Positions 2,217-24,965 of a stretch of DNA of 24,965 nt are shown piece by piece; within the stretch, counting starts at the first letter, position 1; every line of letters starts with the position of its first letter. Where the stretch lies: positions 1 through 24,965 of the IMG/VR virus record IMGVR_UViG_3300027797_000129; one strand, given 5' to 3'. Below the pieces are notes generated by a model, which was not told the origin of the DNA, did no database searches, and saw nothing but the letters and a program-made list of their open reading frames with translations. The position numbers and the translations under genes were made by a program. This DNA comes from a virus.

Positions 2217-2518
2217 TGAGTGCTAATTATGATGCAACCAGTCCGTACTACACCACGGGCTACAATCAATTTTTCTTGGATGTCATGGTCAATAGACCCA
2301 TCCCCAGTCAGAGTGATGATTTGGCTTTCACAATCAATTTGACCTATCAGTACAGACCAGATCTGTTGGCACATGACTTGTATGGGGATGCTCGACTGTG
2401 GTGGGTGTTCTACCAACGCAACCCCAACACCTTGACCAAGCCTCCACTGGATTTTGTGGTCAATACGCAGATCTTGTTGCCCAAGATAACCACTCTCAAA
2501 TCAGTACTGGGATTCTAA
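2216..2518 (+). CDS. 53: Baseplate wedge protein, gp53-like (short form)
   Basis: 100 residues. The core RPDLLAHDLYGDARLWWVF at about residues 47-65 matches the gp53 signature (in T4, RPEELANAIYGNPQLYWVL), in which a helix packs against an aromatic strand. The tail, with DFVVNTQILLPKITTL, resembles the LysM-like end of short gp53-type and P2 gpX-type proteins, where a hydrophobic strand precedes a leucine-rich finish. In T4, gp53 holds wedges to each other and to the hub. T4 gp53 is about 196 residues, so this is roughly half-length and keeps only the N-terminal module. It starts inside the stop codon of the preceding gene and ends one base before the next ATG, which indicates translational coupling with the tube-cap-like and hub-like genes. 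Confidence 0.7.
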   Translation: MSANYDATSPYYTTGYNQFFLDVMVNRPIPSQSDDLAFTINLTYQYRPDLLAHDLYGDARLWWVFYQRNPNTLTKPPLDFVVNTQILLPKITTLKSVLGF

Positions 2519-5839: not shown

Positions 5840-7342
5840 ATGTCAGAAGAAGCACAACGCAGTAGAGGCACACCTCAAAATTACAAACTAGACCGCGGCG
5901 GTACCCCTGCTGAGTACGGGCCATTCTATGGTGTGGTCAAAAATAACGTGGACCCCACCCGAGCCGGACGTTTGCAAGTGTACATTGAAACATTTAGTGG
6001 TGGCAATCCCAACGACTCAAGCAAATGGGTCACAGTGAGATACCTGCCAGGGTTCTTTGGATACACACCGGCCGGCAACACCGCAGATAAAGGCGTTGGT
6101 ACGTTTACACAAAATCAAAATGCCTATGGCATGTGGTTCACACCCCCAGACATTGGTATTACAGTGTTGTGTGTGTTTGCCAATGGTGATCGCCAACTGG
6201 GTTACTATATTGGTGTAGTGCCTGGCAACGGACTGGGGCACATGGTACCAGCCATTGGCAGCAGCTCAAGATATCTTTCAACCAATAAAAATCAACAAAC
6301 ATATTTTGCTGATGATCTTTTATTACCAGTCACAGAAATCAATGCCAGCAACATGGGGTCAATAAACTCACCTGTATTTTTTAATGAAGTCAAGCCAGTA
6401 CACAATATAGTAGCTGGTGTGTTGTTTCAACAAGGGCTCAACCGAGACATTGAACGTGGACCAATACGCAGCAGTAGTCAACGTGAAACTCCTAGCAAAG
6501 TATTTGGAATTTCAACCCCTGGTACCCCCATATACGCAGGCGGTATGAAGCCCAATGATATCTTGCAAAAAATTCAAAACAATGAAATAAAACCCGAACA
6601 AGCGGAAGTAATAGGTCGCATGGGCGGACACACACTGGTGATGGATGACGGTGACCTCACTGGTGCCAATACATTATTTCGACTGCGAACAGCCAAAGGT
6701 CATCAGATCACAATGAATGACTCGGGCAATTTCTTTTATATCACACATGCCAATGGTCAGACCTGGTTGGAGTTTGGTGCAGAAGGCACCGTGGATGTGT
6801 TCTCAACCAACAGTGTAAACATACGCACCAATGGTGATATCAACATGCATGCTGATCGTGACATCAACATGTATGCTGGACGCAACATCCAGGTCAAAAG
6901 TGAGGCCAGTACCACAATAGAAGCTGCCACTGACTTGGCTATCTCTGCACAACAAGATTTGAAAATTTACAGCAAGGCCACACTGGGTATCAAAGCAGAT
7001 GGCACCTTGGCGTTGCAAAGTGCAGGCGGATCATGGAATGGTGGTGAATCATTGACATTCACAGCAGGTGGAATTGATTTGAATGGTCCTGCCGCTGCCT
7101 CAGTTACAGCCCCCAAACCCATTGCCACAATCAAATTAGATGACACAAAATTCAGCACTGCCAAAGGTTGGGAAGTTGATCCTGGCGCACTGACCACCAT
7201 TGTGCCCAGAGCACCCACGCACGAACCTTATCCTTACCATAACAAAGGTGTTGATGCCAAGATCAAATTTGAAGAAGGCAAGCCTACCCCACCTCCGGGT
7301 GCGCCTGCTGTGCCAGCCGGAGTAACCATTCAAGCATTATGA
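5840..7342 (+). CDS. 5: Baseplate central spike, gp5-like, without lysozyme domain
   Basis: 500 residues. Residues about 25-128 form an OB-fold-like domain (YGPFYGVVKNNVDPTRAGRL, a gp5 signature: T4 has WFVGVVEDRMDPLKLGRV). About 130-260 is a linker. About 261-316 leads into a beta-helix. From 317 to 396 there are ten perfect eight-residue repeats of pattern x-hydrophobic-x-hydrophobic-x-small-x-x, the hallmark of the gp5/VgrG three-stranded needle. The C-terminal end carries APTHEPYPYHNKGVD, a motif I recall near spike ends. In T4 a lysozyme domain sits between the OB fold and needle; here that interval is too short and has no such domain. The role is membrane-puncturing needle below the hub. 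Its stop overlaps the next start by four bases (ATGA). Confidence 0.85.
   Translation: MSEEAQRSRGTPQNYKLDRGGTPAEYGPFYGVVKNNVDPTRAGRLQVYIETFSGGNPNDSSKWVTVRYLPGFFGYTPAGNTADKGVGTFTQNQNAYGMWFTPPDIGITVLCVFANGDRQLGYYIGVVPGNGLGHMVPAIGSSSRYLSTNKNQQTYFADDLLLPVTEINASNMGSINSPVFFNEVKPVHNIVAGVLFQQGLNRDIERGPIRSSSQRETPSKVFGISTPGTPIYAGGMKPNDILQKIQNNEIKPEQAEVIGRMGGHTLVMDDGDLTGANTLFRLRTAKGHQITMNDSGNFFYITHANGQTWLEFGAEGTVDVFSTNSVNIRTNGDINMHADRDINMYAGRNIQVKSEASTTIEAATDLAISAQQDLKIYSKATLGIKADGTLALQSAGGSWNGGESLTFTAGGIDLNGPAAASVTAPKPIATIKLDDTKFSTAKGWEVDPGALTTIVPRAPTHEPYPYHNKGVDAKIKFEEGKPTPPPGAPAVPAGVTIQAL
6788..7027 (+). repeat. Ten tandem eight-codon (24-base) repeats encoding the spike beta-helix
   Basis: The octads begin TVDVFSTN, SVNIRTNG, DINMHADR, DINMYAGR and end TLGIKADG, TLALQSAG, without insertion or deletion. 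At the DNA level only the DINMHADR/DINMYAGR pair is still near-identical, which suggests the most recent duplication lies there (6836-6883). The remaining octads keep only the hydrophobic pattern. Confidence 0.85.
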
Positions 7343-9066: not shown

Positions 9067-9441
9067 ATGACCACATTTATCGGCTTCAACACCATCAATC
9101 AAAACAAGAAATTCACTCTGACTGATTTTGCATTGATTCAACGGGACCTGTTGAATGCATTCAACATTCGTCAAGGTGAGTTGCCTGGCCGTCCTGGATA
9201 TGGCACAGTGATTTATGATTTTTTGTTTGAAAATCAACTGGAACAACTGCAACAGGAAATCAGAGCTGAAATACAACGTGTGTGTGGTGGCGATCCTAGA
9301 ATATTACTGAGTGACATACAGGTATTTCCTCAGGAAAATGGCGTAATGATACAAATTGCCATCACCATAGTCAACACTACCAATGCCGAAATACTCAGCA
9401 TATTCTTTGATCAACAACAACGCAATGCCAGTTACGTATAA
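9067..9441 (+). CDS. 25: Baseplate wedge subunit, gp25-like
   Basis: 124 residues, close to T4 gp25 (132). About 20-35 is the N-terminal helix (DFALIQRDLLNAFNIRQGEL). Next comes LPGRPGYGTVIYDFLFEN, the counterpart of the family's Gly/Pro-Phe/Gly then D-x-L-F segment. GGDPRILLSDIQVFPQENG at about 74-92 contains DPR, matching the conserved E/D-P-R motif of gp25 and its type VI secretion relative TssE. Two strands complete it. gp25 joins the gp6 wedge core to the sheath-initiation machinery. It sits directly before gp6, as expected for a wedge module. The 15-base gap before it holds CATAAATA but no clear ribosome site. Confidence 0.85.
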   Translation: MTTFIGFNTINQNKKFTLTDFALIQRDLLNAFNIRQGELPGRPGYGTVIYDFLFENQLEQLQQEIRAEIQRVCGGDPRILLSDIQVFPQENGVMIQIAITIVNTTNAEILSIFFDQQQRNASYV

Positions 9442-9488: not shown

Positions 9489-12400
9489 ATGGCCACAACC
9501 ACAAGACAAACAGCGATATTTGGTGTAGAAGATTGGAAACAGATCTATCAAACCTATCGCGAAGCCGATTTTCAAAGCTATGACTTTGAAACACTGCGCA
9601 AAAGTTTCATTGATTACCTGCGTTTGTACTATCCTGAAACATTCAATGACTACATTGAATCTTCAGAATTTATTGCCTTGTTGGACGTTATGGCATTTAT
9701 GGGCCAAGCACTGGCCTTTCGTACAGATTTAAACACTCGTGAAAACTACATTGACACAGCTGAACGACGCGATTCTGTTGTGCGTCTTGCTAACCTTGTG
9801 AGCTACACAGCCAAGCGCAACACAGCCGCTGAAGGTTTTCTCAAAGTATTCAATGTGTCTACCACTGAAAACGTGGTGGACTACAACGGCGTAAACCTGA
9901 GCAATGTCACAGTTAACTGGGCTGATCCCACCAACAACGACTGGCAAGAACAGTTTACCGCCATTGTCAACGCTTCATTGGTAGACAGTCAAAAAGTAGG
10001 GCGTCCGGGCAATCGTCAAACCATCTTAGGTGTGAGAACTGACGAATACGCAATCAATTTTGTACCTGGCTTCTTGCCCGTAATTCCTTATTCAGCCACA
10101 ATAGACAATGTAAACATGCCATTTGAAGCCATGACTTCAACCGCTGTGGGACGTGATTATGTGTACGAACCAGCGCCCACTCCCAACACAGTGTTCAACA
10201 TGCTGTTTAGAAATGATCAGCTGGGCTTTCAATCGGCCAACACAGGATATTTCTTTTTGTTCAAACAAGGTGTATTGCAGAATCAAGATTTCAACTTGGC
10301 CGAACGTGTGGCCAACCGCACTGTGGACATCAACATAGAAGGTGTCAATAATGAAGACCGTTGGTTGTTTCAGCTGGACAATGTTGGCAACATCAACAGA
10401 CAATGGCAATATGTGGACAATGTGTACACAGCAGCCGCACAACGAGACAATGCATTGCAACCAGTGTACTCAGTTACAAGCCGAGCCAATGATCAAATCA
10501 CCATGGTGTTTGGTGATGGTGTATTCTCAGAAATTCCTGTGGGCATCTTCCGTGCCTATGTTCGCGCTTCAAACGGGTTGCAATACATCATCAATCCTGA
10601 AGAAATGCAAAACATTGTGTTGCCCATCAGCTATACCGATCGCAATGGCAACTTGCAAACTATCACATTCACTTGTGGTATCACACGTCCCGTGTCAAAC
10701 AGTCAGGCACGTGAACCCATTGGGGAAATCAAACAACGTGCTCCTGCACGTTACTATACACAGAACCGCATGGTCAACGGCGAAGATTACAACCTGTTTC
10801 CATACACTGCTTATAACTCAATTATCAAATCTAAAGCCCTGAATCGTGCGTCAATTGGTACCAGTCGTTACCTTGACCTTGTGGACAACACTGGCAAATA
10901 TTCCAGCACAAACACATTCTCAAGTGATGGTGGCATATGGCGTCAAAATATTCTACCTACCATTTTGTTTTCCTGGACCAACCGCAACGACATTGCGGAT
11001 GTTATTACCAATCAAGTTCAACCAGCCCTGATTGGCCCCACAGTCAAACAGTTTTACTACGAAAACTTTCCAAGAATTACCGCCACTACTACTCCCACAA
11101 ATATAACGTGGTTGAGTGGATACACTTGGAATCAAAGTACCACCATGGCCAATGAAACCACTGGCTATTTTAGAAATACCACAACCAGTGCTACCTGGCC
11201 CAATGGCACACCAATTCCCATTGGTGTAAACACTACCACAATGTTTCAGTATGTGATACCAGGAGCATTGATTAAATTTGTGCCTCCCACCGGCTATTAC
11301 TTTGACCGCAACAACCGACTGGTACAAGGCACACCCATGCGAGCAGATGAACGCATGGAAATTTGGGCCAGTCCACAACTCATCATAGGAGATGGATACA
11401 ATGGCGGTCTTGGCAATTTAACTTCGGGTGCAGGACCAGTCACAATTAACAACTTTGTGCCCACTGGTGCCATTGTTGACACTATTATTCCGTTGTTTGT
11501 GACAGATCTGCCCAACTCAGTGGAACAAGCCGTAACTGATCAAATCTTGTTGAATCGTAATTTTGGTCTGGGCTACGACAACAATGGTGATATAACTGGA
11601 ACACCTTACACCTGGTATATCATAACCAGCACTAATCTTGACGCATATTCTCAAAGCAATACTGCTACCTGGAGTCAGCAATATGCTGGCAATACTTCCG
11701 GAGCAAATCTTGATGCGTCTTGGATGATACAATTTGTGGTGCAAAATCAAAACTACACTATCACATTCCGTGGATTGAGTTATAACTTTGGATCTGTGTT
11801 ACAAACACGTTTCTTCTTTTACGAAGACCAACTGGTATACGACAGTCGCACAGGCACAATCATCAAGGACTTTGTCAATGTGCTGGCAGTAAACACACAA
11901 CCCAACAGCACACAGCCACTGCCTGGCGATATCTATACCACCATAATTGGGCAACCTGTGGAAAGTGATGGTTATGTTGATGACTTCCAGGTGCTGATAA
12001 GTTATCGCGATTCAGACAATGACGGCGTGCCAGACAATCCTGACTTCTTCGACGAGATTGTGGGACCAGCTTCACCTTCAGGACCTTTTGTGTTCCTACA
12101 ACAAACAGTGGACTTTGACAATTTGCAACGTTACTTGTTGGCAGAACCGGGCGTTGTGAACTATGACTATGCCACACTGGATGACATTGAACTGGCCAAA
12201 ACTGAGTGGACCCCAGGACAAGTTTTTTATGCCTACACTGATCAGGCATTTTATCAACTCAGTATTTCAGTCACAGGTGTGAGAACCATTATCGCAGTGT
12301 CAGGATGGATTGCCAGAACTGGACGTCAAGCATTGTATTTCCAATATCGTCACAACTCACCACTCACAAATAGAATTGATCCAGGCACAACCAACATCAT

Positions 12401-12965
12401 TGACCTGTATGTTGTAACCCTGAGCTATTACACTGCTTATCAAAATTGGTTGCGAGACACCACTGGCACTGTGCTACAACCAAACTTGCCTACAATTGAT
12501 GAATTAACTACAGAATACCAAAACTTACAAGATTACAAAATGATCTCAGACAACATCATTGTGAACCCTGTGATATTCAAACCACTGTTTGGGCCCAAGG
12601 CAGCACAACAGTTACGAGCCACAATCAAAGTAATTCGTGCTCAAAATAGCACGGCCAGCACCAGTGAAATCAAAAGCTCAGTACTGGCCGAAATGAACGC
12701 ATACTTCAGCATTGACAAATGGAATTTTGGTGACACATTCTATTTCTCAGAGCTGGCAGCATACCTGCACAGACAACTGGGTACAATCATCAGTTCCGTT
12801 GTACTGGTGCCCTTGGATCAACAAAAGAGTTTTGGTGACCTGTATGAAATTCGCAGCCAGCCCAATGAAATTTTTGCCAATGGCGCTGTCATTGACAACA
12901 TTGATGTGATTGAAGCATTGACCAGTACCAATCTGCGGACTGCCCCAGGCAGCGGAGTAATTTAA
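9489..12965 (+). CDS. 6: Baseplate wedge subunit, gp6-like (enlarged)
   Basis: 1158 residues. About 25-120 carries the gp6 N-terminal block, including FIDYLRLYYPETFNDYIES and ENYIDTAERRDSVVRLANLV, which is strongly conserved in T4-like gp6. About 1020-1158 forms a baseplate-J-like end with GPKAAQQLRATIKVIRAQNS and a later FGDTFYFSELAAYLHRQLG. gp6 forms the inner wedge ring dimer. T4 gp6 is about 660 residues, so the middle (roughly 430-1000) is extended with Thr/Asn/Tyr-rich strands. A calcium-loop-like DSDNDGVPD occurs at 841-849. The ATG is preceded by GGACGAG about 9 bases upstream, an imperfect ribosome site. The stop TAA overlaps the next ATG by one base. Confidence 0.85.
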   Translation: MATTTRQTAIFGVEDWKQIYQTYREADFQSYDFETLRKSFIDYLRLYYPETFNDYIESSEFIALLDVMAFMGQALAFRTDLNTRENYIDTAERRDSVVRLANLVSYTAKRNTAAEGFLKVFNVSTTENVVDYNGVNLSNVTVNWADPTNNDWQEQFTAIVNASLVDSQKVGRPGNRQTILGVRTDEYAINFVPGFLPVIPYSATIDNVNMPFEAMTSTAVGRDYVYEPAPTPNTVFNMLFRNDQLGFQSANTGYFFLFKQGVLQNQDFNLAERVANRTVDINIEGVNNEDRWLFQLDNVGNINRQWQYVDNVYTAAAQRDNALQPVYSVTSRANDQITMVFGDGVFSEIPVGIFRAYVRASNGLQYIINPEEMQNIVLPISYTDRNGNLQTITFTCGITRPVSNSQAREPIGEIKQRAPARYYTQNRMVNGEDYNLFPYTAYNSIIKSKALNRASIGTSRYLDLVDNTGKYSSTNTFSSDGGIWRQNILPTILFSWTNRNDIADVITNQVQPALIGPTVKQFYYENFPRITATTTPTNITWLSGYTWNQSTTMANETTGYFRNTTTSATWPNGTPIPIGVNTTTMFQYVIPGALIKFVPPTGYYFDRNNRLVQGTPMRADERMEIWASPQLIIGDGYNGGLGNLTSGAGPVTINNFVPTGAIVDTIIPLFVTDLPNSVEQAVTDQILLNRNFGLGYDNNGDITGTPYTWYIITSTNLDAYSQSNTATWSQQYAGNTSGANLDASWMIQFVVQNQNYTITFRGLSYNFGSVLQTRFFFYEDQLVYDSRTGTIIKDFVNVLAVNTQPNSTQPLPGDIYTTIIGQPVESDGYVDDFQVLISYRDSDNDGVPDNPDFFDEIVGPASPSGPFVFLQQTVDFDNLQRYLLAEPGVVNYDYATLDDIELAKTEWTPGQVFYAYTDQAFYQLSISVTGVRTIIAVSGWIARTGRQALYFQYRHNSPLTNRIDPGTTNIIDLYVVTLSYYTAYQNWLRDTTGTVLQPNLPTIDELTTEYQNLQDYKMISDNIIVNPVIFKPLFGPKAAQQLRATIKVIRAQNSTASTSEIKSSVLAEMNAYFSIDKWNFGDTFYFSELAAYLHRQLGTIISSVVLVPLDQQKSFGDLYEIRSQPNEIFANGAVIDNIDVIEALTSTNLRTAPGSGVI
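12954..12957 (+). promoter_or_regulatory. Ribosome binding site of the giant virion protein
   Basis: GGAG lies 7 bases upstream of the ATG at 12965 and inside the last codons of gp6. It is the best-spaced Shine-Dalgarno-like site in the window and supports this start. Confidence 0.5.
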
Positions 12966-15900
12966 TGGCCCGCATAAGATCAGTCGATTTTCTTCCACAA
13001 ATTTTTCAAACTCCAGTCAACAAACAGTTCCTGGCTGCCACTCTGGACCAAATGGTACAAGAGCCCAAGTTTAAAAAGACTCAAGGCTTCATTGGCCGCA
13101 CAGTGGGTCCTGGAGTCAACCCCAATGACAAGTATGTGGTTGAACCAGACAAAAGCCGTCAGGACTATCAACTTGAGCCGGGGGTCATCAGTCTTGAGCC
13201 AGATACCGACAACATCAAAAATGTCATCACATATCCTGGTATAAATGATGCCATTGGGTTCCAAGGTGGTGATCAAACCAGACCCGATCAACTGTATAAC
13301 AGTGAGTATTATACCTGGGATCCGTTTGTAGATTATGATTCATTTGTAAACTTCAGTCAATACTTCTGGGTACCCACAGGACCACAAACTGTGGAAATAT
13401 TCACTGGAGGAATACCTGCCACTGACAATTTTGATGTCACAAGAGAAAATGGTGTTTACACATTCTCTGGTGTGCCAGGTAACAATCCCACACTTGATCT
13501 TGTGCGCGGTGGTAGCTATACTTTCCGGGTAGCACAAAACGCCAAAGAAACTGTGAATTATCGTGTGACCAACCGTGGCACCAGTTCATATCTAATAGAT
13601 CAACTGCCCAATCCAACATTGACCTTGGCACGTGGTAACACTTACGTGTTCAACCTCACGCTGAATGCACCATATCCTTTTTGGATCAAAACTGCCATAG
13701 TGCAAGGCACCGGCAGTGCGTACAATTCTGGAGTCACACGCAACGGCAGTGTCACTGGGTTGGTAACATTTACTGTGCCTCAAGATGCTCCTGACACACT
13801 GTATTATGTGGCCGAAAATCAAACCAATTTGCACGGCACATTCAACATTGTCAACGGTACCCCAGGCACTGGACCAGGATTTTGGATTCAAACCAATCCA
13901 GGTACTGCAGGAGTTTTGCCGTTCACACCCAACATCAGTAGCCGAGACGTTGTTGGTGTGGCCAACAATGGAGAAGATCTTGGCGTAATTACTTTCAATG
14001 TGCCACAAAAAACAGCACAACAATTTTACGATGATCTTGCAGATGTGGGCCCAGTTGATTTGTTGACAACATTGGATTTTGACCAAATCAATAATCAACC
14101 GTTGGATGAGTTTATTGCAACTTACAATGGCATTGATGGCATCACCTACCTTGACGCCCGCACCTTGGTGTTTACCAACCCCATAGTTGATGCCGAAAGC
14201 GGCGGATGGTTGCAAACAACGTTTTATGACCCATTGTTTCAATTGGGCTTTGCCCAACCCACAGGCAATCGTCGGCTCCCCATCAACATTGTTGACATAA
14301 CAACCGATTTATCTGGTATAACAACATTGGACTTTGCGTCTGAACTGTATCCACCATTGGTTGGCGATCTAGTGCGTATCACTGGGGTAACTCCCAGTTT
14401 GTACAACGGTGATTTTGTAGTTACTGCATCAAGCGGCACGTCGATCAGTGTAATCAACACTCAAGCAACTCCAGTCACCAATTGGCCACTGCCCGGCGGA
14501 ACCATCACTGTGTACGGAAATTACAATTCTGTGTCAGTGACATCTGTCACAGGCACTGGCACTGGGGCCTTGCTCAATGTAAATTTATTTGCAGGCAGCA
14601 ACACTTACAATACCAAAACTGAAATACAAGTGGTGTCTCCGGGCACAGGATACACAGTTGGAGATATTTTAAAAATTACCGGAAATCAATTGGGTGGGGC
14701 AACACCAGCCAACGATCTCACATTGGTTGTGGCATCAATCACAGACAATGGCTCAGTTGGTAGTTTTGACACCACAACATTTGATCAAGCTATAACCATT
14801 CCCTTCGAAGATCGTTACCAAGTTTGGCAAATTAACATTGTGGATCGCAACGGCACAGATTATATCAGTCTGGCAAAAATTAGCAATGTCAATACCAATG
14901 AAAAATTCACAGTCCGCTATGGTAGAACATACAGCAGTACCAGCTGGTACAAACTTGCCACAGGATATTTCAAACAAATTCCATTGCTGACAGCGGCACT
15001 GGACGAGTTGTATTATCAAGACGGCACAGATCCAGAAATATTTGGCCGCATTAGATTGTTAGAACAATCTGAATCCAACACAATTTTCATTGATCAAGTT
15101 TTAGGACAGTCTGATTATACATCTCCCAATGGCGTGGTGTTCACCAACGGATTAAAAGTCAAATTTATCGGCGACATTTATCCTGCCAGTTACGGGTCAG
15201 GCACATTGGCAGTCACTTGTACAGACACCGTGGGCGGGTCTAACTATATCACTTGCGAAACCACGGTGGGGTTGTATGAAGGCGAAGAAATTATATTCAG
15301 TGCCAGCACCTTTGGCATTGTTGCCGGCCAAACTTATTACATCAAATCAATTTCTGCCAATGGCGTGCAATTTTCAATATCCTCAGTAAGAGATGGAGCG
15401 GCTGTGGTATTGACCACAGGTGTTTACCAGGTGGCTGCCACAGCATTTAGTTTGAATGAATATTATGTTGCAGGGGTGGGCACTGCCATTGAGCTGTTGC
15501 CAGTTAAAAATTTCGTCACACCAGAAAGCTATGTAGAAGATGCCAACGACAGCACTATTGCAACTGAACCCAATCAACTGGATTACCTCACTATTGATCG
15601 AGCAAGTCAAGACTTGAATCCTTGGACTCGTAGCAATCGTTGGTTCCACATCGATGTACTTCAAGCCACTGCCAGTTACAACAACACCGTGGCTGACCTT
15701 GACAACAACTATAGAGCCAAACGTCCTATCATCAGTTTCAGACCTGGTGTCAGACTGTACAACATGGGCACTGAAGGCAAGCAACCAGTGGACATGATTG
15801 ATTTTGCTGAAACTGATGCACTCAGCAATATCGAAGGCAGTACTGGATACAGCACAGATGGCTACACACTGGTTGATGGCAGCAGAATTATTTTTGCAGC

Positions 15901-18900
15901 AGATCAAGATCCCAATGTACGCAACAACATTTACGTAGTGCAATTTATCACACCAGACACCGTGCCACCCCTGATTGCACAACCAATAATTCATTTGGTG
16001 TTGGCCAGCGATGGCGAAGTGCTGTTGGACCAATCCACAGTGTGTTTGTACGGCAACACCAATCCAGGCAAAACATTTTGGTATGATGGTGTTGAATGGA
16101 CATTGGCACAACAAAAGACTGCCATCCAACAAGCACCACTGTTCAACGTTTATGATTTGAACAGCATCAGCTTTGGCGACAGAGCCACATATCCATCTAG
16201 CACATTTGTGGGCAGCAAGTTGTTCAGTTATGCAGTGGGTGACACCACTATACTAGATCCTGTATTGCAATTCCCATTGCAATATTTAAATATCAACAAC
16301 GTTGGTGATATTGTGTTTGAAAACAACTTGTACAAAGATACATTTTTGTATGTTGAAGACAATGTTTCAATTACTACAGATATCAGTTCAGGTGCCGCAA
16401 GAGAGTACGCGGATAGAACAATTTATAAAAAATTAATTGGATGGCAAACAGCCGCGGCCACCAGCCAGCAGTATCAACAATTTAAATTTACTTACACTGG
16501 GCAGACATTAAAATTAGATGTTGCTGTGGGCACTGCCACAGTGATGCCACCTTTGAAAATTTATGTGGGTTCTAATTTTATAAAGCCAGAAAAATACACT
16601 TATACGCTGGGAACCAACAGTACAACTATTACGCTGGTAGACACATATCTACCAACTGATGTAATTGAAGTACTGGCACTGAGTGATCAAACCAGTGCCA
16701 CAGCATTTTATCAGGTACCAATTAATTTAGAAAACAATCCGTTGAACGGCAACAGCCCAAGTTTTACCTTGGGTACCATTCGCACACAGTATGAAAGCAT
16801 CTGTGAAAATTTATCAACTCTGGTTGGACCAATAACCGGTGCCAACAACACCAGAGACCTGGGCAATATAGTTCCTTATGGATTAACTATTTTACAACAA
16901 AGTTCTCCACTGACCTTGGCTGGATATTTCCTGCGCAGCGAGAAGTTCAATATATTTGCCAGCTTGCAGTACAACAGCAACGAATATTTGAAATTCAAAG
17001 GACAGATGTTGAATGCTGTCACACAGCAAACCATACAAGAATCAGATACCACCAGCGAAGTGCTTGACACTGTGATAGCGGACATCACCCTGGGCCGGGT
17101 GGAAGCACAGCCGTTCTATTGGAGTGACATGCTGCCGGCCGGCCAGGTGTATCAGGCTACCACATACACCGTGTCAAATACCACAACAGACACATTTGAT
17201 ACCATTCAAGTTTACAACTACACATCGGCTAACTATCTTGGAATGAATGTGTATTTGAACAATGTTATTCTCACAAGAGATCTTGATTATGTTGTGGCCA
17301 CAGATGGTCCACGCATTACAATTTTAACTGATCTTGTGCTGGGAGATGTGTTGTTGTTGCAAGAATATTCTGCAACGTACGGCACATTTGTACCAAACAC
17401 ACCAACCAAAATGGGCTTGTATCCGGCGTTTCGTCCTGAAATTGTGTCGCAAAAAACCACCAATGGCACACAGACAGTGATTGTTGGGCATGATGGCAGC
17501 ATCACAAAAACATTTGGTGACATACGTGATCAAGTGTTGTTGGAATTTGAAACAAGAATATTCAACAATTTAAAATTGGACGGAAATCCTGTCCCTATCG
17601 AATTAGCTGATGTCATACCTGGGCAATTTAGAACCACTGGTTACAGCATAGATGACATCAACAACATCCTGGCAACAGACTTTTTGAGTTACGTGGCCTG
17701 GAACAAACTGGATTACAAAACACAAAACTATCAGGTCAACAACGAATTTTCTTGGAACTACAGTGGCAGTCAAAGTCGACTTGACAATGATCTATTGCCC
17801 GGAGCCTGGCGAGGTATCTATCGCTACTACTATGACACACAACAACCACAACTGACTCCTTGGGAGATGTTGGGCTTGAGTATTAAACCACTTTGGTGGG
17901 ATACCTTGTATGGTGAGGGACCTTACACACAAGACAACTTGGTGTTGTGGGATGACATAGCGGCAGGGTACATTGCTGATCCCATTGATCCAAGATTTGT
18001 ACCACAGTATGCTCGTCCAGCATCGTACACATCAACTGATCCCACTGATCCAACATATTCTGGACCGCGCGAAGGTGCCTGGGCTATAAGTTCGTACGGA
18101 CAAGGGCCATATCCTCAGTTGCAACCAGTGGTGCCCACGGCTGACGAAGGTGCATTGCTGAGTCCGTTTGATGCTGTGGTAGGAACCTACAATGATCAAA
18201 CATTCCGTAAGAGTTGGAGCATCGGCGACGGCGGCCCAGTAGAAGCATCGTGGTGGAACAGCAGTGCGTATCCGTTTGCAGCCATGCGATTGTTGGCACT
18301 GACTCGCCCAGCTAAGTTCTTTGCGCTGTTTGCTGATCGTGACTTGTACAAGTACAACACTGATTTTGATCAATATCTCTACAACAATCGTTACAGATTA
18401 AATGCTCGAGACATTGAAGTCTACGGCAATGGAGTCAGCAAGGCCAGTTATATCAACTGGATAGTGGACTACAATCGTCAAAGCGGAGTAGACAGCACTG
18501 TGGAGCTCACTGCGGATCTTGATTTCCTTGATGTGAGATTGTGTTACAGAATGGCCAGTTTCAGTGACAAACAGTACATTAAAATTTACACAGAAAAATC
18601 CAGTCCTAACTCTGTAAATACCACGCTGTTGATTCCTGACGAAAGTTACGATCTTGTGCTGTATAAAAATCAGCCATTTGATCGTGCCAGTTATTCTGCT
18701 GTGGTAATACAAAAAGTTGTGGGCGGGTACGCTGTGTTTGGCTACAGCACCACACAACCATTCTTTAACGTAGAACAAAGCCAGTTTACAGGACAATTAC
18801 AAACCTACAACGTGGCTGGCATCACAGTTCAAGTTCCTACTTTTTACACTGGCACTGTTACACAAGTTCCTTATGGATATATCTTTGCAGACGAAACCGC

Positions 18901-21900
18901 GGTCAGTACTTTCTTGCTAGGATACGGGCAGTATCTAGAAAAACAAGGTTTGATTTTTGACGACGTGACCAACAACTACATTCTAAGTTGGAATCAAATG
19001 GTCACCGAATTCTTGTATTGGAGCCAACAAGGTTGGGACGACAATGCCTTGATCAATCTCAACCCACTGGCATTTAGATTACAGGTAACTCGTCCACAAG
19101 CAGTGGTTGACAGCGTGGTGGCACAAACCAGTGAAAATATTATTTTAGATCAAAATCGTCAAGAATTGGCCACTCGCAATCTTGTGATCACACGCATTGA
19201 CAATACTTTTACAGTAGAACCTGCCACAGATCAAACACTGAGTCAAATTGATTTGAAATACACCTCTTACGAACACATGATAGTGTTGAACAACGCCAGT
19301 GTGTTTGGTGACTTGATCTATCAACCCATAACTGGCGCACGTCAAAGCAGATTGACACTAATTGCTGCCACCACCACTGAGTGGAATGGTTCAGTTGACG
19401 CCCAGGGATTTATTCTCAATCAAGACAATGTGCAAGATTGGTCTCCATATCAAACTTATACCAAAGGTCAAATTGTAAAATACAAAGGCGCTTATTGGTC
19501 AGCGGCCTACATTGTACAACCCACAGAAATATTCAATGCCAACGACTGGTTGGCCAGTGATTACACACAAATTGAACTGGGACTGTTGCCCAATCTGGCC
19601 AACAAAGCCAATCAACTGCAAAACAGTTACAACATCAACACAGCCAATTTGGAAAGCGACAACGATTTGTTGAGCTACGGCCTGATTGGCTTCCGTCCAC
19701 GTCAGTATATGGCATCATTGAACCTTGACGATGTCACACAACTCAATGTATACAGACAGTTCTTGGGATCAAAAGGTACCATACTCAGTGCTGAATTATT
19801 CTCTCAAGCCAATCTTGGCAAGGAATCAGCAGACTACAACATCTATGAAAACTGGGCGGTGCAACGTGCAGTATATGGTGCTAACGCCAACCGCAGTTTC
19901 TTCCAGTTACGATTGAATCGTGCATTGCTGGATTCCAACCCCAGTCTTGTGCAAGTGGTCTTCCCACAACAGGTCAGCGAGGCAGATCAGGCCATATTGG
20001 TGTCAGACATCTGGAGAGAAAGTTACAATATAACATCTCCTGAAATATTGCCAGTTACTACTGCTTTGCCCACAGATTCTGCGTTGCCCACAGCAGGGTA
20101 CGTGAATTTAGATGATGTTGATATCACCGTATTTGATATCAATGATACTTTTAGTCTAGAAGCTAACCTTGACGCCATTGGTGTTGGTACCAATATCTGG
20201 GTGGCCAAAATTAATTCGTTTGATTGGGCCATTTATCGAGCACAGGCAGTGCCGGGTATTATTGCTCACGTGTGTGACAACTTGGATGGCACCAGTCTGG
20301 TAATATTCTCTGAACAACACGGACTTACGGTCCGTGACAAACTGATAATTAGATTCTTTGACGCTGAAGTAAACGGAGTTTACACTGTGTTGACACGACC
20401 TAGTCTTGACAAGGTTACCATTGCATTCAGCTTTACTGGTGACCGAACAGTGGTCAACGGAGTCGGCATTGGATTTACGTTGGAAACACAACGTGTGTCA
20501 CAGGCCAGTGACGTGTTGAATTTGCCTTATGCCAACACCATTCAACCAGGTGCCAAAGTTTGGGTAGACAACAATGGCGCTGACCTGTGGACAGTGTTGC
20601 AAAAACAAGAAGTATTCTCCGGCATTTCTGAACTGGCACCTGTAGAAGTAGACGAAGGCGAACAATACGGCAGCGCCATTGCACAGGCACAAAACCGTAC
20701 TGCTGCCTTGGTTGGCAGCCCAAGATATCGTTTCCCAGCAGGCGCCACTCAATGGAGCATTGCAAACACCTACGCAACCAATGACATTGTGTTTGTGCTG
20801 GATCCTGTACAAACTGAATTTTTCCAGGCTGTGCAATCAGTGCCCGCCAGTCCTCCAGTGCCAATTACCAATACCGCATATTGGACTCCGTATTCATTGA
20901 GCAGTTTGCCGCGTCAGGGTGGCGTGTATGTATATGTGAAGAGTGACAGCAATGTGTACTCACCAATTTCAGCTCTGGCACCATTGGATGCTGTGTTGAC
21001 CTTGGACCGAGTTGATGTCAGCGGCGGTGCATTCAACGGACAAACTGCTGCTCGCGGCTACGGCACCAGTGTGGACTTTGGCAATCAGACCTGGGCAGCC
21101 GCTGGCGCACCAAATAGCTTGGGATCCACTGGTCTAGTGGACAATGGTTATGCCACAGTGATCTTTCGTGATCCACAGTTGGGAAGACCTGGACTAATTC
21201 CCTACGGTCAATGGCAGTTGTTGACCAGCCCGGTCTCTCGCACTGCCGCAGAAGAATTTGGGTACAGCGTGTCAGTCAGCCTGGATGAACGTTGGATGTA
21301 CATTGGTGCACCTGGAGTGAACTCTGTGTATGCTTATGGTCGAGTGGACTGGGAAAGACAAAGAGTGCAGGCACTGGGTGATGGCGTTACTACCACATAC
21401 GCCATTGGTAACATTATTCAAATTGATGCCAACACTCAATTGACTGTGAGTGTGGCCGGTGAAGAACAGTTCCTTGGCACAGATTACACAGTGATTGGCT
21501 CGTTGACCGCAGTTCAATTTACCACAGCACCTGCGGATGGTGATGCTGTTGAAATTTTAAGAACCAGTCGCAAGTTACTGGATTATCAAACATATTTCAA
21601 TGTGGCAACAACTTGTGCCACAGGTTCAGGTGCAACATTTGATGTCACTCGTGTTAGAGGAACTGTCACAGTGTATCTTAGCGGCGGTGGCTCAGGATAT
21701 GTTGATGGCACACCCAGTGCAAACAGCATCACTATTCCTGCTGCAAATTTTGGCGGCGGCACTAGTCCTGCAAATGACATCACTGTCACCGTGACAGTAT
21801 CAGGGGGAGTGGTCACAGGTATTTCTGGCACACCAACATACACACCACCCGCATTGGCCACAGTGTTTTCGTTGAATGAATATTTGTACACTGCCAACAA

Positions 21901-24900
21901 CATCAACAGTTTCTCAATACTGGTCAATGATGTATTACAACGTCCCAATATTGATTACACATTTAGTACCGTCACACAAGATTTGACATTTGTCAACAGT
22001 CCAGCAACTGGCTCGGCTATTCTTGTGAGAGCTGAAGGGTATTTTGCATATTCAGGTACCATCACCAATCCAGCCAGCACGGCCGGCAATAGATTTGGAC
22101 ACAGTGTCAGCACCAGCACTGATGGACGTCAGGTATTGATCAGTGCTCCGTATACCACAGTTGACACCAATGCCGAAGCAGGCACAGTGTATGTGTACGA
22201 TCGTGATGTGCAACGATTCATATACGGAACAGATGGGTCAACTGTGACATTCACTGTGTTGGGCACAGTGTCGGCACCGGTGAGTGTACTGGTCAATAAT
22301 ATGTTTTTCACCAACGAATTGGATGCAGCACCTGGTGCAACCAACACATTCTCTGTGAGCGGCAATACTGTTACTATCAACGGTGATTTGTACATTGGTG
22401 ACATAATTGAAATTGAAACCAATGCGTTCAACTTGGTACAAACAATAAATCAAAACACAGTCGAAGAGTTTTCAAATTATGGATATGCCACTGACCTGTG
22501 CCAGTATAATTGCAGCCTGTATGTGGGTGCGCCCAACAGCAGTGTGCAAAATTTCAAAGGTGGTGTGGTAGAACGCCAAATAAATCAAAGTCGTGCATTT
22601 GGTATTATCACTGCTCTCAATGCCAATCCTACCTTGACCAGCGGCAATACCATACGTGTGAACAATCAAGATGTTGTTGTGCCATCTGCATGGAACAGCG
22701 CATCAACTTATTCCACAAATACCATTGTTTACAATTACAGTTCTGCCACAACAGTGACAACAATTTATGTGAGTTTGCAAAACGTGTCACTTGGCATTGC
22801 ATTGACCAACACATCTTATTGGAACACTGCCACAACTACCATGGTCACCGCCAGTGGCCAAATACGTGCGCTGGCAGCACAAATCAATACGGATGTGCCC
22901 AATGTTAATGCCACAGTTGACGCCACTGGAAAGTTGACCTTGGCAGTTAAAAATTCAGCGGCAGCACCGGTGGGAAACAAACTGCAAGTGGCACCAGGAT
23001 CAGTCGGAACTGCATTTGATGATATTGGTTTTGACACATTTGTGTTTACACAAACCATTCAGAGTCCGTATCCTGTGGACTTTGCTGGCTTTGGCACCAG
23101 CTTGAACATTGATGACACAGCCGTGAACCTGGTGGTGGGTTCACCACGAGGCACGTTGTACCTAATCACAGTGTTTGATGTTACTATCAACACTGATGGC
23201 AACACAGTAGAAACTGACTTTGATGAAGGTGCTACTGATTTCTTTGATCAAACCATACAAAGTGGTGCAGTATACACTTACGATTTGTTGTCAAGTTCAA
23301 ATTCTTCTGTGGCCAATCCTGACAAATTTGTGTTCGGCCAACAAATCAGCAGTCCAGCCATAGCATCATATGATCGATATGGAACTGCTGTGAACTACAA
23401 TGATGGTGTGCTGTTCACCGGAGCACCAGGCAACGAATTTGGAGACAGTACACTCAGCGGCAACTATGGCAGAGTATTTGTCAGTGTCAATCCCGACAGA
23501 GTACCTGCATGGACTGCACTGAGAGTTCAACAACCTGTGGTTGATATTAGACTGTTGAATTCAGTGTACAGTTATGATCGTATCACTTCTGCGGTGACAC
23601 AATATTATGATTTCTTCAATCCATTGCAAGGCAAGATACTAGGAGCTGCACGTCAGAACTTAGACTACATTGGTGCAATTGATCCAGCCAGCTACAATGT
23701 GGGTCCTGTAAATATTCGCGGCACAACTTGGGGTGCAGGCTATGTGGGCCAAACCTGGTGGAATACCAGCACAGTGAGATTTATTGATCCCAGCCAAGAT
23801 GACATTGTGTATGCAAGTCGTCGTTGGGGACAAGTGTTCCCAGGCAGCACAGTAGATGTGTATCAATGGGTTGTCAGTCCAACTCCACCTTCGGCTTATG
23901 TTGGTGAAGGCATACCATATGACACAGCCAGCTATGTAATAAACACTGTGTTAAGTCAAGTTGGCATCTTCAACACTGAATATTATTTCTGGGTGCGCGG
24001 AATAACCGCAACAGCCACACAGAAAGGCAAAACATTGCCTGTCAGCACTGTGGCCAATTACATTGAAAATCCCAGAGCAAGTGGTATAACTTATATTGCG
24101 CCAATCAATGCCAGTACCATTGCACTGTACAATGCGGCTGATTACATAGAAGCTGAAGACACTGTGATTAGCATTGAATTTGACAAAGAATTCAACAATG
24201 ATAACGTTCACGTTGAGTACGAATTAATTGCACAAGACAAAGCAGACGGCTGGCTTAGCAACAATTTATATCGCAAACTGCAAGACAGCTTTTGTGGTGT
24301 AGACACTGCTGGTAATCTTGTGCCAGACGTTAATCTTGGCCCAGCCGAGCGATATGGAGTGCAATTCCGTCCAAGACAAAGCATGTTTGTGGACAGATTT
24401 GCTGCATTGAAAAATTATCTGGTTCGTGCCAACACTGTTTTGGCTCAATTTACTATATCAGAAAACCGTACATTTGTGCTGTTGAACAGTCGCGAACCTG
24501 AACCCAGTGCCACAACAACTATTGGTGGTATTACAACTGTTAACTGGAACAAACGTGTGGCCAATTTGGAAATACTAGGGTTCCAACAAATTGATACAGT
24601 ACCATTGGGTTACAAATATTTGGTGGCAACAGACTCTAGAAATCGTGGACTGTGGACAATTTATCAAGTGATAGAAACCACTCAGGCCAGTGGCACTGTT
24701 AGAGAACTGCAACTAAATCGTGTGCAAAATTATGACACACGCCAGTACTGGAGTTATATCAACTGGTATCTACCTGGTTACAACAGTAGTGCCAAAATCA
24801 TTGCTGAAGTTCCTAATTTTGCCGCATTGTCCACACTGAACGTGACAGTTGGTAGCAGTGTAAAAGTCACAGCCAATGGGCAAGGAAAATTTGAAATTTA

Positions 24901-24965
24901 CCTACGCACTGTCACTGGTTGGGATCGCGTGGGCCTACAAGACGGTACCATAGAATTCTCAGCTG
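12965..24965 (+). CDS. Giant multidomain virion structural protein (3' end missing), in the gp7 position
   Basis: The frame is open for 4000 complete codons with no stop and continues past the window. The N terminus (MARIRSVDFLPQIFQTPVNK, then FLAATLDQM and KFKKTQGFIGR) resembles a segment seen in large T4-like wedge proteins. Landmarks in order: cupredoxin-like strand pair about 174-295; a GGT-PAND beta module about 529-593; conserved DLNPWTRSNRWFHID about 883-897; two fibre-like beta modules about 1173-1469; Trp-rich PFYWSDMLP and TPWEMLGLSIKPLWWD between about 1380 and 1650; DGGPVEASWWNSSAYPF from about 1754; a CBM-like module about 2160-2198; seven FG-GAP-like repeats about 2566-3509 with inserted modules; then RWGQVFPGSTVDVYQW and FRPRQSMFVDRF. 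It lies straight after gp6, where T4 has gp7 (about 1030 residues); a gp7-related role is inferred. It could instead be a peripheral fibre-like component. Confidence 0.9.
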   Translation, partial: MARIRSVDFLPQIFQTPVNKQFLAATLDQMVQEPKFKKTQGFIGRTVGPGVNPNDKYVVEPDKSRQDYQLEPGVISLEPDTDNIKNVITYPGINDAIGFQGGDQTRPDQLYNSEYYTWDPFVDYDSFVNFSQYFWVPTGPQTVEIFTGGIPATDNFDVTRENGVYTFSGVPGNNPTLDLVRGGSYTFRVAQNAKETVNYRVTNRGTSSYLIDQLPNPTLTLARGNTYVFNLTLNAPYPFWIKTAIVQGTGSAYNSGVTRNGSVTGLVTFTVPQDAPDTLYYVAENQTNLHGTFNIVNGTPGTGPGFWIQTNPGTAGVLPFTPNISSRDVVGVANNGEDLGVITFNVPQKTAQQFYDDLADVGPVDLLTTLDFDQINNQPLDEFIATYNGIDGITYLDARTLVFTNPIVDAESGGWLQTTFYDPLFQLGFAQPTGNRRLPINIVDITTDLSGITTLDFASELYPPLVGDLVRITGVTPSLYNGDFVVTASSGTSISVINTQATPVTNWPLPGGTITVYGNYNSVSVTSVTGTGTGALLNVNLFAGSNTYNTKTEIQVVSPGTGYTVGDILKITGNQLGGATPANDLTLVVASITDNGSVGSFDTTTFDQAITIPFEDRYQVWQINIVDRNGTDYISLAKISNVNTNEKFTVRYGRTYSSTSWYKLATGYFKQIPLLTAALDELYYQDGTDPEIFGRIRLLEQSESNTIFIDQVLGQSDYTSPNGVVFTNGLKVKFIGDIYPASYGSGTLAVTCTDTVGGSNYITCETTVGLYEGEEIIFSASTFGIVAGQTYYIKSISANGVQFSISSVRDGAAVVLTTGVYQVAATAFSLNEYYVAGVGTAIELLPVKNFVTPESYVEDANDSTIATEPNQLDYLTIDRASQDLNPWTRSNRWFHIDVLQATASYNNTVADLDNNYRAKRPIISFRPGVRLYNMGTEGKQPVDMIDFAETDALSNIEGSTGYSTDGYTLVDGSRIIFAADQDPNVRNNIYVVQFITPDTVPPLIAQPIIHLVLASDGEVLLDQSTVCLYGNTNPGKTFWYDGVEWTLAQQKTAIQQAPLFNVYDLNSISFGDRATYPSSTFVGSKLFSYAVGDTTILDPVLQFPLQYLNINNVGDIVFENNLYKDTFLYVEDNVSITTDISSGAAREYADRTIYKKLIGWQTAAATSQQYQQFKFTYTGQTLKLDVAVGTATVMPPLKIYVGSNFIKPEKYTYTLGTNSTTITLVDTYLPTDVIEVLALSDQTSATAFYQVPINLENNPLNGNSPSFTLGTIRTQYESICENLSTLVGPITGANNTRDLGNIVPYGLTILQQSSPLTLAGYFLRSEKFNIFASLQYNSNEYLKFKGQMLNAVTQQTIQESDTTSEVLDTVIADITLGRVEAQPFYWSDMLPAGQVYQATTYTVSNTTTDTFDTIQVYNYTSANYLGMNVYLNNVILTRDLDYVVATDGPRITILTDLVLGDVLLLQEYSATYGTFVPNTPTKMGLYPAFRPEIVSQKTTNGTQTVIVGHDGSITKTFGDIRDQVLLEFETRIFNNLKLDGNPVPIELADVIPGQFRTTGYSIDDINNILATDFLSYVAWNKLDYKTQNYQVNNEFSWNYSGSQSRLDNDLLPGAWRGIYRYYYDTQQPQLTPWEMLGLSIKPLWWDTLYGEGPYTQDNLVLWDDIAAGYIADPIDPRFVPQYARPASYTSTDPTDPTYSGPREGAWAISSYGQGPYPQLQPVVPTADEGALLSPFDAVVGTYNDQTFRKSWSIGDGGPVEASWWNSSAYPFAAMRLLALTRPAKFFALFADRDLYKYNTDFDQYLYNNRYRLNARDIEVYGNGVSKASYINWIVDYNRQSGVDSTVELTADLDFLDVRLCYRMASFSDKQYIKIYTEKSSPNSVNTTLLIPDESYDLVLYKNQPFDRASYSAVVIQKVVGGYAVFGYSTTQPFFNVEQSQFTGQLQTYNVAGITVQVPTFYTGTVTQVPYGYIFADETAVSTFLLGYGQYLEKQGLIFDDVTNNYILSWNQMVTEFLYWSQQGWDDNALINLNPLAFRLQVTRPQAVVDSVVAQTSENIILDQNRQELATRNLVITRIDNTFTVEPATDQTLSQIDLKYTSYEHMIVLNNASVFGDLIYQPITGARQSRLTLIAATTTEWNGSVDAQGFILNQDNVQDWSPYQTYTKGQIVKYKGAYWSAAYIVQPTEIFNANDWLASDYTQIELGLLPNLANKANQLQNSYNINTANLESDNDLLSYGLIGFRPRQYMASLNLDDVTQLNVYRQFLGSKGTILSAELFSQANLGKESADYNIYENWAVQRAVYGANANRSFFQLRLNRALLDSNPSLVQVVFPQQVSEADQAILVSDIWRESYNITSPEILPVTTALPTDSALPTAGYVNLDDVDITVFDINDTFSLEANLDAIGVGTNIWVAKINSFDWAIYRAQAVPGIIAHVCDNLDGTSLVIFSEQHGLTVRDKLIIRFFDAEVNGVYTVLTRPSLDKVTIAFSFTGDRTVVNGVGIGFTLETQRVSQASDVLNLPYANTIQPGAKVWVDNNGADLWTVLQKQEVFSGISELAPVEVDEGEQYGSAIAQAQNRTAALVGSPRYRFPAGATQWSIANTYATNDIVFVLDPVQTEFFQAVQSVPASPPVPITNTAYWTPYSLSSLPRQGGVYVYVKSDSNVYSPISALAPLDAVLTLDRVDVSGGAFNGQTAARGYGTSVDFGNQTWAAAGAPNSLGSTGLVDNGYATVIFRDPQLGRPGLIPYGQWQLLTSPVSRTAAEEFGYSVSVSLDERWMYIGAPGVNSVYAYGRVDWERQRVQALGDGVTTTYAIGNIIQIDANTQLTVSVAGEEQFLGTDYTVIGSLTAVQFTTAPADGDAVEILRTSRKLLDYQTYFNVATTCATGSGATFDVTRVRGTVTVYLSGGGSGYVDGTPSANSITIPAANFGGGTSPANDITVTVTVSGGVVTGISGTPTYTPPALATVFSLNEYLYTANNINSFSILVNDVLQRPNIDYTFSTVTQDLTFVNSPATGSAILVRAEGYFAYSGTITNPASTAGNRFGHSVSTSTDGRQVLISAPYTTVDTNAEAGTVYVYDRDVQRFIYGTDGSTVTFTVLGTVSAPVSVLVNNMFFTNELDAAPGATNTFSVSGNTVTINGDLYIGDIIEIETNAFNLVQTINQNTVEEFSNYGYATDLCQYNCSLYVGAPNSSVQNFKGGVVERQINQSRAFGIITALNANPTLTSGNTIRVNNQDVVVPSAWNSASTYSTNTIVYNYSSATTVTTIYVSLQNVSLGIALTNTSYWNTATTTMVTASGQIRALAAQINTDVPNVNATVDATGKLTLAVKNSAAAPVGNKLQVAPGSVGTAFDDIGFDTFVFTQTIQSPYPVDFAGFGTSLNIDDTAVNLVVGSPRGTLYLITVFDVTINTDGNTVETDFDEGATDFFDQTIQSGAVYTYDLLSSSNSSVANPDKFVFGQQISSPAIASYDRYGTAVNYNDGVLFTGAPGNEFGDSTLSGNYGRVFVSVNPDRVPAWTALRVQQPVVDIRLLNSVYSYDRITSAVTQYYDFFNPLQGKILGAARQNLDYIGAIDPASYNVGPVNIRGTTWGAGYVGQTWWNTSTVRFIDPSQDDIVYASRRWGQVFPGSTVDVYQWVVSPTPPSAYVGEGIPYDTASYVINTVLSQVGIFNTEYYFWVRGITATATQKGKTLPVSTVANYIENPRASGITYIAPINASTIALYNAADYIEAEDTVISIEFDKEFNNDNVHVEYELIAQDKADGWLSNNLYRKLQDSFCGVDTAGNLVPDVNLGPAERYGVQFRPRQSMFVDRFAALKNYLVRANTVLAQFTISENRTFVLLNSREPEPSATTTIGGITTVNWNKRVANLEILGFQQIDTVPLGYKYLVATDSRNRGLWTIYQVIETTQASGTVRELQLNRVQNYDTRQYWSYINWYLPGYNSSAKIIAEVPNFAALSTLNVTVGSSVKVTANGQGKFEIYLRTVTGWDRVGLQDGTIEFSA
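13484..13849 (+). other. Cupredoxin-like strand pair within the giant protein (residues about 174-295)
   Basis: NPTLDLVRGGSYTFRV (residue 174 on) and NPTLTLARGNTYVFNL (residue 216 on) are two copies of the same opening strand 42 residues apart. The second continues to PYPFWIKT, then TFTVPQDAPDTLYYV and HGTFNIVNG. The arrangement matches the cupredoxin-like modules of phage structural proteins, which usually end Y-x-C-x-x-H-x-x-M-x-G. Here the Cys is absent and only the His before Gly remains, so copper binding is unlikely. The first copy is truncated after the opening strands. Confidence 0.5.
14549..14743 (+). repeat. GGT-PAND beta module, copy 1 (residues about 529-593)
   Basis: The module reads T-G-T-G-T-G-A opening, then SPGTGYTVGDILKITGNQLG and GGATPANDLTLVV. 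The same order of elements returns at 21620-21823. Modules of this kind are common in tail fibres of aquatic T4-like phages. Confidence 0.55.
16481..17371 (+). repeat. Fibre-type beta modules A and B of the giant protein
   Basis: Module A (16481-16684) has LKIYVGSNFIKPEKYTYTLG followed by ITLVDTYLPTDVIEVLAL. Module B (17189-17371) has NVYLNNVILTRDLDYVVATD followed by RITILTDLVLGDVLLLQEYS. Both follow the pattern strand, V-x-V-x-(G/N)-x-x-x, DY-x-V turn, hydrophobic strand, G/T-D-x-(I/L)-x-(V/L). Three more copies appear near the propeller. Confidence 0.5.
19438..19555 (+). other. CBM5/12-like aromatic module 1 (residues about 2159-2197)
   Basis: The segment has W, then YTKGQIVKYKGAYWSA, and closes with DW: the W-x(n)-Y-x-x-G-x-x-V-x-Y-x-G-x-x-Y-x-A pattern of chitin-binding-type modules. 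Related segments recur at 20753-20884 and 22691-22822. Sugar binding is inferred only. Confidence 0.45.
20753..20884 (+). other. CBM5/12-like aromatic module 2, between blades 1 and 2
   Basis: The segment has W, then NTYATNDIVF, FFQAVQSVPASPPVP and closes with AYW (residues about 2597-2640). It matches the aromatic spacing of modules 1 and 3, including the Ala/Ser-rich proline turn before the final YW. Confidence 0.5.
21377..21568 (+). repeat. Fibre-type beta module C, between blades 3 and 4
   Basis: The segment has GDGVTTTYAIG, then LTVSVAGEEQFLGTDYTVIG and VQFTTAPADGDAVEILR. This is the most canonical copy of the G-D-G-x-T-T, V-x-V-x-G, D-Y-x-V, F-x-x-A-P-x-x-G-D pattern common in phage fibres. 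Confidence 0.65.
21620..21823 (+). repeat. GGT-PAND beta module, copy 2, between blades 3 and 4 (residues about 2886-2953)
   Basis: The segment has TGSGATFDVTRVRG, then SGGGSGYVDG, ITIPAANFGGGTSPANDITV and a closing V-x-G-I. It repeats the element order of the copy at 14549-14743, more than 2300 residues earlier in the same protein. Confidence 0.6.
21863..22420 (+). repeat. Fibre-type beta modules D and E, on either side of blade 4
   Basis: Module D (21863-22039) has SFSILVNDVLQRPNIDYTFS and LTFVNSPATGSAILVRAEG. Module E (22226-22420) has GTDGSTVTFTVLG, VSVLVNNMFF and GDLYIGDIIEIET; it lacks the DY turn. Blade 4 (about 22094-22207) lies between them. Confidence 0.55.
22691..22822 (+). other. 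CBM5/12-like aromatic module 3, between blades 5 and 6
   Basis: The segment has W, then STYSTNTIVYNYS, TIYVSLQNVSLG and closes with SYW (residues about 3243-3286). It follows the same aromatic spacing as module 2, with the F-x-Q-A strand replaced by I-Y-V-S. Confidence 0.45.

Follow-up and report, generated by a model that had tools for sequence, protein, structure and literature searches.

The window analysed here is a 24,965-nucleotide stretch of viral DNA, positions 1 to 24,965 of IMG/VR record IMGVR_UViG_3300027797_000129. Its genes include four with profile matches to baseplate proteins and a giant open reading frame (ORF) whose backbone is divided by an added domain:

2216..2518, plus strand: small baseplate wedge subunit, gp53-like (phrog_7145, E 3.8e-21)
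5840..7342, plus strand: gp5/VgrG-like baseplate hub protein (phrog_13211, E 6.1e-37)
9067..9441, plus strand: gp25-like baseplate wedge protein (phrog_261, E 4.1e-10)
9489..12965, plus strand: gp6-like baseplate wedge protein (phrog_10646, E 1.7e-272; phrog_219, E 3.8e-24)
12965..24965, plus strand: giant virion protein ORF, 4000 aa within the window, 3' end open
12965..20509, plus strand: giant-protein backbone ahead of the propeller region, with stretches shared by cultured jumbo phages up to residue ~2458
23528..24964, plus strand: resumed backbone, beginning QQPVVDIRLLNSVYSYD..., common to cultured relatives

The giant ORF lies directly downstream of the gp6-like gene and matches phrog_10938 along its backbone (E 1.7e-282), and by this profile match its product is a member of that family of giant jumbo-phage virion proteins, with an added domain. 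Relatives of the protein are 4700-6000 aa long, and IMG/VR holds 156 relatives of the propeller described below and at least 595 of the backbone, on contigs of up to 349 kb. Family members from isolates are PA5oct gp355, whose record bears the note ESI-MS/MS, PBECO4 gp538, Atu_ph07 gp180, SCTP-2 gp140 and Vibrio 2.275.O 424. In the cultured relatives with an annotated gp6 the giant gene directly follows gp6, as it does in the window; in SCTP-2 it follows an unannotated large ORF. The phrog_10938 label, “head and packaging”, may be misleading because members of the family are encoded among the baseplate genes, immediately downstream of gp6. This is also the place held by gp7 in T4, and no homology of the giant protein to T4 gp7, gp6, gp8 or gp10 was found; the gp7 comparison was a weak one, in which a single gp7 sequence was matched neither by an HMM of the giant protein nor by hhalign limited to the giant protein's N-terminal 170-200 residues. 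An Asp-box-like SNDKGQTW in T4 gp7 raises the question of whether gp7 has a propeller of its own. Profile searches of the PDB with backbone segment A2 and post-propeller segment A6 yielded no matches. Near the N-terminus, residues ~193-297 (about 13541-13855) form a module common to cyanophage tail-fibre proteins, at 47% over 98 aa with a P-SSM2 tail-fibre protein.

The added domain occupies giant-protein residues ~2560-3525, with C-terminal strands reaching about 23527, and contains seven FG-GAP units at residues 2568, 2699, 2765, 3044, 3172, 3376 and 3472. An earlier note, made from the letters of the DNA, had described seven FG-GAP-like units in order at 20660-23491; all seven fall inside those coordinates, and their number and order are confirmed by shuffling, by conservation across 72 sequences and by a leave-one-out profile. 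The elements of the domain are as follows:

20546..20605, plus strand: entry hairpin GAKVWVDNNGADLWTVLQK; a similar hairpin is kept in propeller-less PA5oct
20666..20965, plus strand: blade 1 (FG 2568) with a B-C insert; conservation, unit profile, predicted strands
20750..20914, plus strand: blade 1 B-C insert, CBM5/12-like by eye
21059..21223, plus strand: blade 2 (FG 2699); conservation, unit profile, predicted strands
21257..22066, plus strand: blade 3 (FG 2765) with a C-D insert; FG-GAP_2 match at 21245-21319
21347..22039, plus strand: blade 3 C-D insert, 231 aa; first part matches Phage_T7_tail (PF03906)
22094..22447, plus strand: blade 4 (FG 3044) with a 60-aa C-D insert at 22223-22402; FG-GAP_2 match at 22076-22198
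22478..23059, plus strand: blade 5 (FG 3172) with two conserved Cys around the A-B turn and a C-D insert
22586..23038, plus strand: blade 5 C-D insert, 151 aa, with a Flagellin_IN-like domain
about 22691-22855, plus strand: CBM5/12-like stretch (by eye), nested in the blade 5 insert
23090..23347, plus strand: blade 6 (FG 3376) with a B-C insert at 23144-23263; conservation, unit profile, predicted strands
23378..23527, plus strand: blade 7 (FG 3472); FG-GAP_2 match at 23360-23449, unit profile, predicted strands

A scan of the 4000-residue ORF with the pattern [FY]G-x12-15-[GS][AS]P returned eight matches, the seven units and one at residue 3087, which was rejected as an eighth unit because it is not conserved in relatives. 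When the region was shuffled 20,000 times, never more than two matches arose. In an alignment of the window with 71 relatives, the glycine of each FG is present in 72 of 72 sequences and the aromatic residue before it in at least 70 of 72, in each unit. In addition, a profile trained on any six units recovered the seventh (i-E 0.0044 to 3.6e-8, with repeat 7 the weakest at 0.0044), and these profiles found no significant match elsewhere in the giant protein. On the shuffles and the conservation, a chance motif pattern was rejected. Two cysteines flanking the A-B turn of blade 5, at residues 3179 and 3183, are invariant in the 72 sequences and could possibly form a disulfide or a metal site.

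Matches to existing profiles were clear for the domain and uneven for its parts. Pfam FG-GAP_2 scored 30.2 bits on the window domain (cut-off 23) and matched 50 of 51 diverse members, with a best E-value of 8e-23; individually, only three of the seven window units were matched, that in blade 4 being over the cut-off at 26.3 bits. Most of the PDB sequences found by an unbiased profile search were integrin alpha chains, with weak E-values, the best being 0.014 and the rest ranging to 0.9 or weaker. The weak per-unit matches speak for another reading, in which the motifs arose by chance or convergence in a beta protein that is rich in Gly, Ala and Pro and is no propeller. We consider this very improbable in view of the shuffles, the conservation, the leave-one-out test, the FG-GAP_2 matches across the family and two structure predictions.

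The first of these predictions, by AlphaFold2, covered residues 2516-3566 with 101 related sequences and gave a mean pLDDT of 89.1 and a pTM of 0.88. Its 28 predicted strands follow in order and were assigned to seven A-B-C-D sets, with each A strand beginning just after the FG and each B strand ending at the GAP. Foldseek comparison of the model with the PDB returned many integrin heads (E 1e-7 to 1e-5, probability up to 1.00), at target TM values of 0.48 for 4wk2_A and 0.49 for 8tcf_A, integrin alpha chains; this moderate likeness to integrin propellers, at most 0.49, is probably due to the inserts. In the viral library the best match was an uncultured Caudovirales protein (E 5e-27); next came proteins of giant viruses and others, several with an FG-GAP annotation. 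The second model, of a 694-aa relative with fewer inserts (L149), reached a pLDDT of 81.3 and a pTM of 0.84, and its PDB matches were largely beta-propellers or propeller-bearing chains, including the seven-bladed CIAO1 (TMt 0.76, rmsd 6.2). The model of the window domain contains the seven four-stranded blades that the earlier note had anticipated, and from the strand count, the pTM and the fold matches of the models we infer a closed seven-bladed ring. By sequence and predicted fold the domain belongs to the FG-GAP propeller superfamily, and for the propeller fold itself our confidence is very high.

The integrin alpha N-terminal propeller likewise has seven FG-GAP repeats with A-B-C-D strands per unit, and integrin alpha chains dominate the PDB profile matches and are among the top Foldseek matches of the window domain. 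The window domain differs in its large B-C and C-D inserts and in being embedded in a phage protein of ~5000 aa. Strictly defined, an alpha-integrin propeller binds Ca2+ through DxDxDG loops that lie between its A and B strands. The window propeller has no such site, and 26 of 101 members show a lenient pattern of this type at some position in the region. The Cage motif (phi phi G phi X13-20 P X2-15 G X5-8; PMC3192720), in simplified form, fits six of the seven units, unit 6 having an insert between the P and the G. As the Ca2+ sites are absent, the domain is an FG-GAP_2-type propeller and not a strict alpha-integrin propeller; of the “integrin-type” label in the earlier note, the FG-GAP fold and the matches to integrin heads stand, but in the strict sense the label fails.

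Several loops between the strands of the domain are expanded by inserts. The expanded B-C loops of blades 1 and 6 measure 66 and 40 aa. The start of the blade 3 insert scores 25.5 bits with Phage_T7_tail (PF03906), barely over the cut-off of 25.2, and is followed, by eye, by a Gly-rich module and then a second similar beta module. Gly-rich stretches at residues ~2870-2970, within this insert, and at residues ~525-600, in the N-terminal part of the giant protein, look alike by eye. The blade 5 insert matches Flagellin_IN at 22.8 bits, again barely over the cut-off (22.7). Of 101 members, about 12% carry the blade 1 insert and about 40% the CBM-like stretch nested in the blade 5 insert. A CBM5/12 identity for these two W-rich inserts of the window has no Pfam support, and CBM_5_12 was matched by one of 51 diverse members (E 1.5e-4). 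At three divergent loci (L169, L171 and L172) a more degenerate propeller seems to fill the same site, and in L172 seven units can be made out by eye in about 420 aa with hardly any insert.

Comparison with the cultured relatives places the propeller at a single site. The giant-protein profile aligns collinearly with their proteins until about residue 2334-2458, the alignment is restored from about 3503-3534, and in PA5oct, SCTP-2, Atu_ph07, Vibrio 2.275.O and PBECO4 the backbone match stops and then resumes, with the FG-GAP propeller absent from all five. In PA5oct a hairpin, GKVWIDS...DWAVAVV, resembles the entry hairpin of the window, and the post-propeller sequence follows it within about 15 residues. 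The gap between the flanks is about 90-400 aa in the other cultured relatives and about 1500 aa, without FG-GAP, in Atu_ph07 gp180 (L083 19885-24420), where short parts of this segment repeatedly match a more C-terminal portion of the giant protein; because of that segment, the site may accept other domains too. Among backbone relatives that span both flanks and were found with a window-led profile, 62 of 62 carry the domain, and those found with PA5oct or L155 mostly carry it, some as degenerate matches only, with no propeller profile match in L170. Searches of 50,697 phage records by tblastn gave no match with the propellers of the window, L149 or L160 and two short partial matches with that of L163, and a pattern scan of bacterial and archaeal genomes found no relative. 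Sequence and prediction thus show the propeller as a self-contained domain at one fixed site of the giant-protein backbone.

This distribution bears on what the propeller might do. It could serve only as a structural hub inside the baseplate or the tip of the tail, with the inserts contacting neighbouring subunits. There is a precedent in the nozzle protein of SU10, a seven-bladed tail propeller with inserted domains that forms a sixfold tail ring and carries a fibre dock (PMC9509320), and blades 3 and 4 have strongly conserved A-B turns. We nevertheless find an internal hub quite unlikely, as cultured relatives with the same backbone do without the domain, which makes the propeller no necessary core part, and as the inserts come and go. 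T7 gp12 and the SU10 nozzle also differ from the window in gene context and tail type (podovirus), and neither is among the 50 PDB matches listed by Foldseek.

Mean pairwise identity is 0.59 in the propeller, compared with 0.68-0.78 in most of the flanking backbone, 0.64 in the variable N-terminal part and 0.61 in the entry hairpin, and the most variable parts of the propeller are the D-A, C-D and B-C loops. Such a conservation profile fits a platform that is exposed and dispensable better than it fits a core part of the wedge; the propeller is also less variable than would be expected of a receptor-binding tip. Receptor recognition, which the earlier note had thought suited to such a propeller, is possible. 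The receptor-binding domain could be the propeller itself, which would bind a host glycan or surface protein with the face that bears the loops, in the manner of FG-GAP-related lectin and integrin propellers. This would agree with the frequent ligand and sugar binding of FG-GAP/VCBS-type propellers (PMC8023676, PMC9218822), and with the beta-propeller platform of Gp45 in the baseplate host-recognition device of Staphylococcus phage phi11 (PMC4901313). The variable D-A and B-C loops, the faster evolution of the domain relative to most of the backbone and the differences in CBM-like inserts between lineages point the same way. We nonetheless regard it as conceivable but improbable, since no ligand site is identifiable and Ca2+ sites are lacking, the core seems more conserved than is typical of hypervariable receptor-binding proteins, and in relatives the giant gene is followed by separate genes that are candidates for fibres. 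The phi11 Gp45 protein, moreover, has five blades, is a homotrimer and is encoded by a separate RBP gene.

Seven-bladed phage-tail propellers and beta-propeller receptor-binding proteins are already known (PMC9509320, PMC4901313); in the papers and the PDB searched, an FG-GAP propeller was not found in any characterised baseplate protein. By analogy, the precedents run both ways, the SU10 nozzle carrying a fibre dock and phi11 Gp45 being a propeller near the receptor, and a role as exposed scaffold or dock, for which the T7/SU10 nozzle protein is a model, would be at least as likely as receptor recognition. The propeller probably forms an exposed platform on the baseplate of the tail; it would carry extra modules and may touch the host. 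The flanking backbone segments, also found in cultured relatives, presumably build the baseplate wedge, from which the propeller would project as a rigid platform; its inter-strand loops would display lineage-specific modules (T7-fibre-type, Flagellin_IN-type and CBM-like), and the platform would dock appendages, make accessory host-surface contacts, or both. Because cultured relatives lack it, the propeller would be dispensable for the wedge itself. To this reading as a whole, an exposed wedge platform acting as scaffold or dock with possible host contact, we give slightly better than even credence. A bolder version, in which the domain of uncultured jumbo phages is an integrin-like adhesion head in the wedge whose loop face and swappable modules bind the host and couple to baseplate triggering, we consider doubtful.

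Part of one of the largest proteins of jumbo phages, a protein with no assigned function, is now given a content, a propeller domain. The domain is present or absent as a whole, always at the same site, in a baseplate backbone that is otherwise collinear. As a defined, expressible domain, it allows us to ask whether the baseplate wedge, beyond the fibres, contacts the host. Of the five complete or near-complete isolate records searched, Atu_ph07 alone matched FG-GAP_2, through a separate protein, gp320 (E 5e-18). By eye, about seven FG-like units can be counted in the 393 aa of gp320, which is small and free-standing, unlike the giant-protein domain of the window. Its gene (L244 4019-5200) is annotated “hemagglutinin” and lies beside genes annotated as tail sheath.
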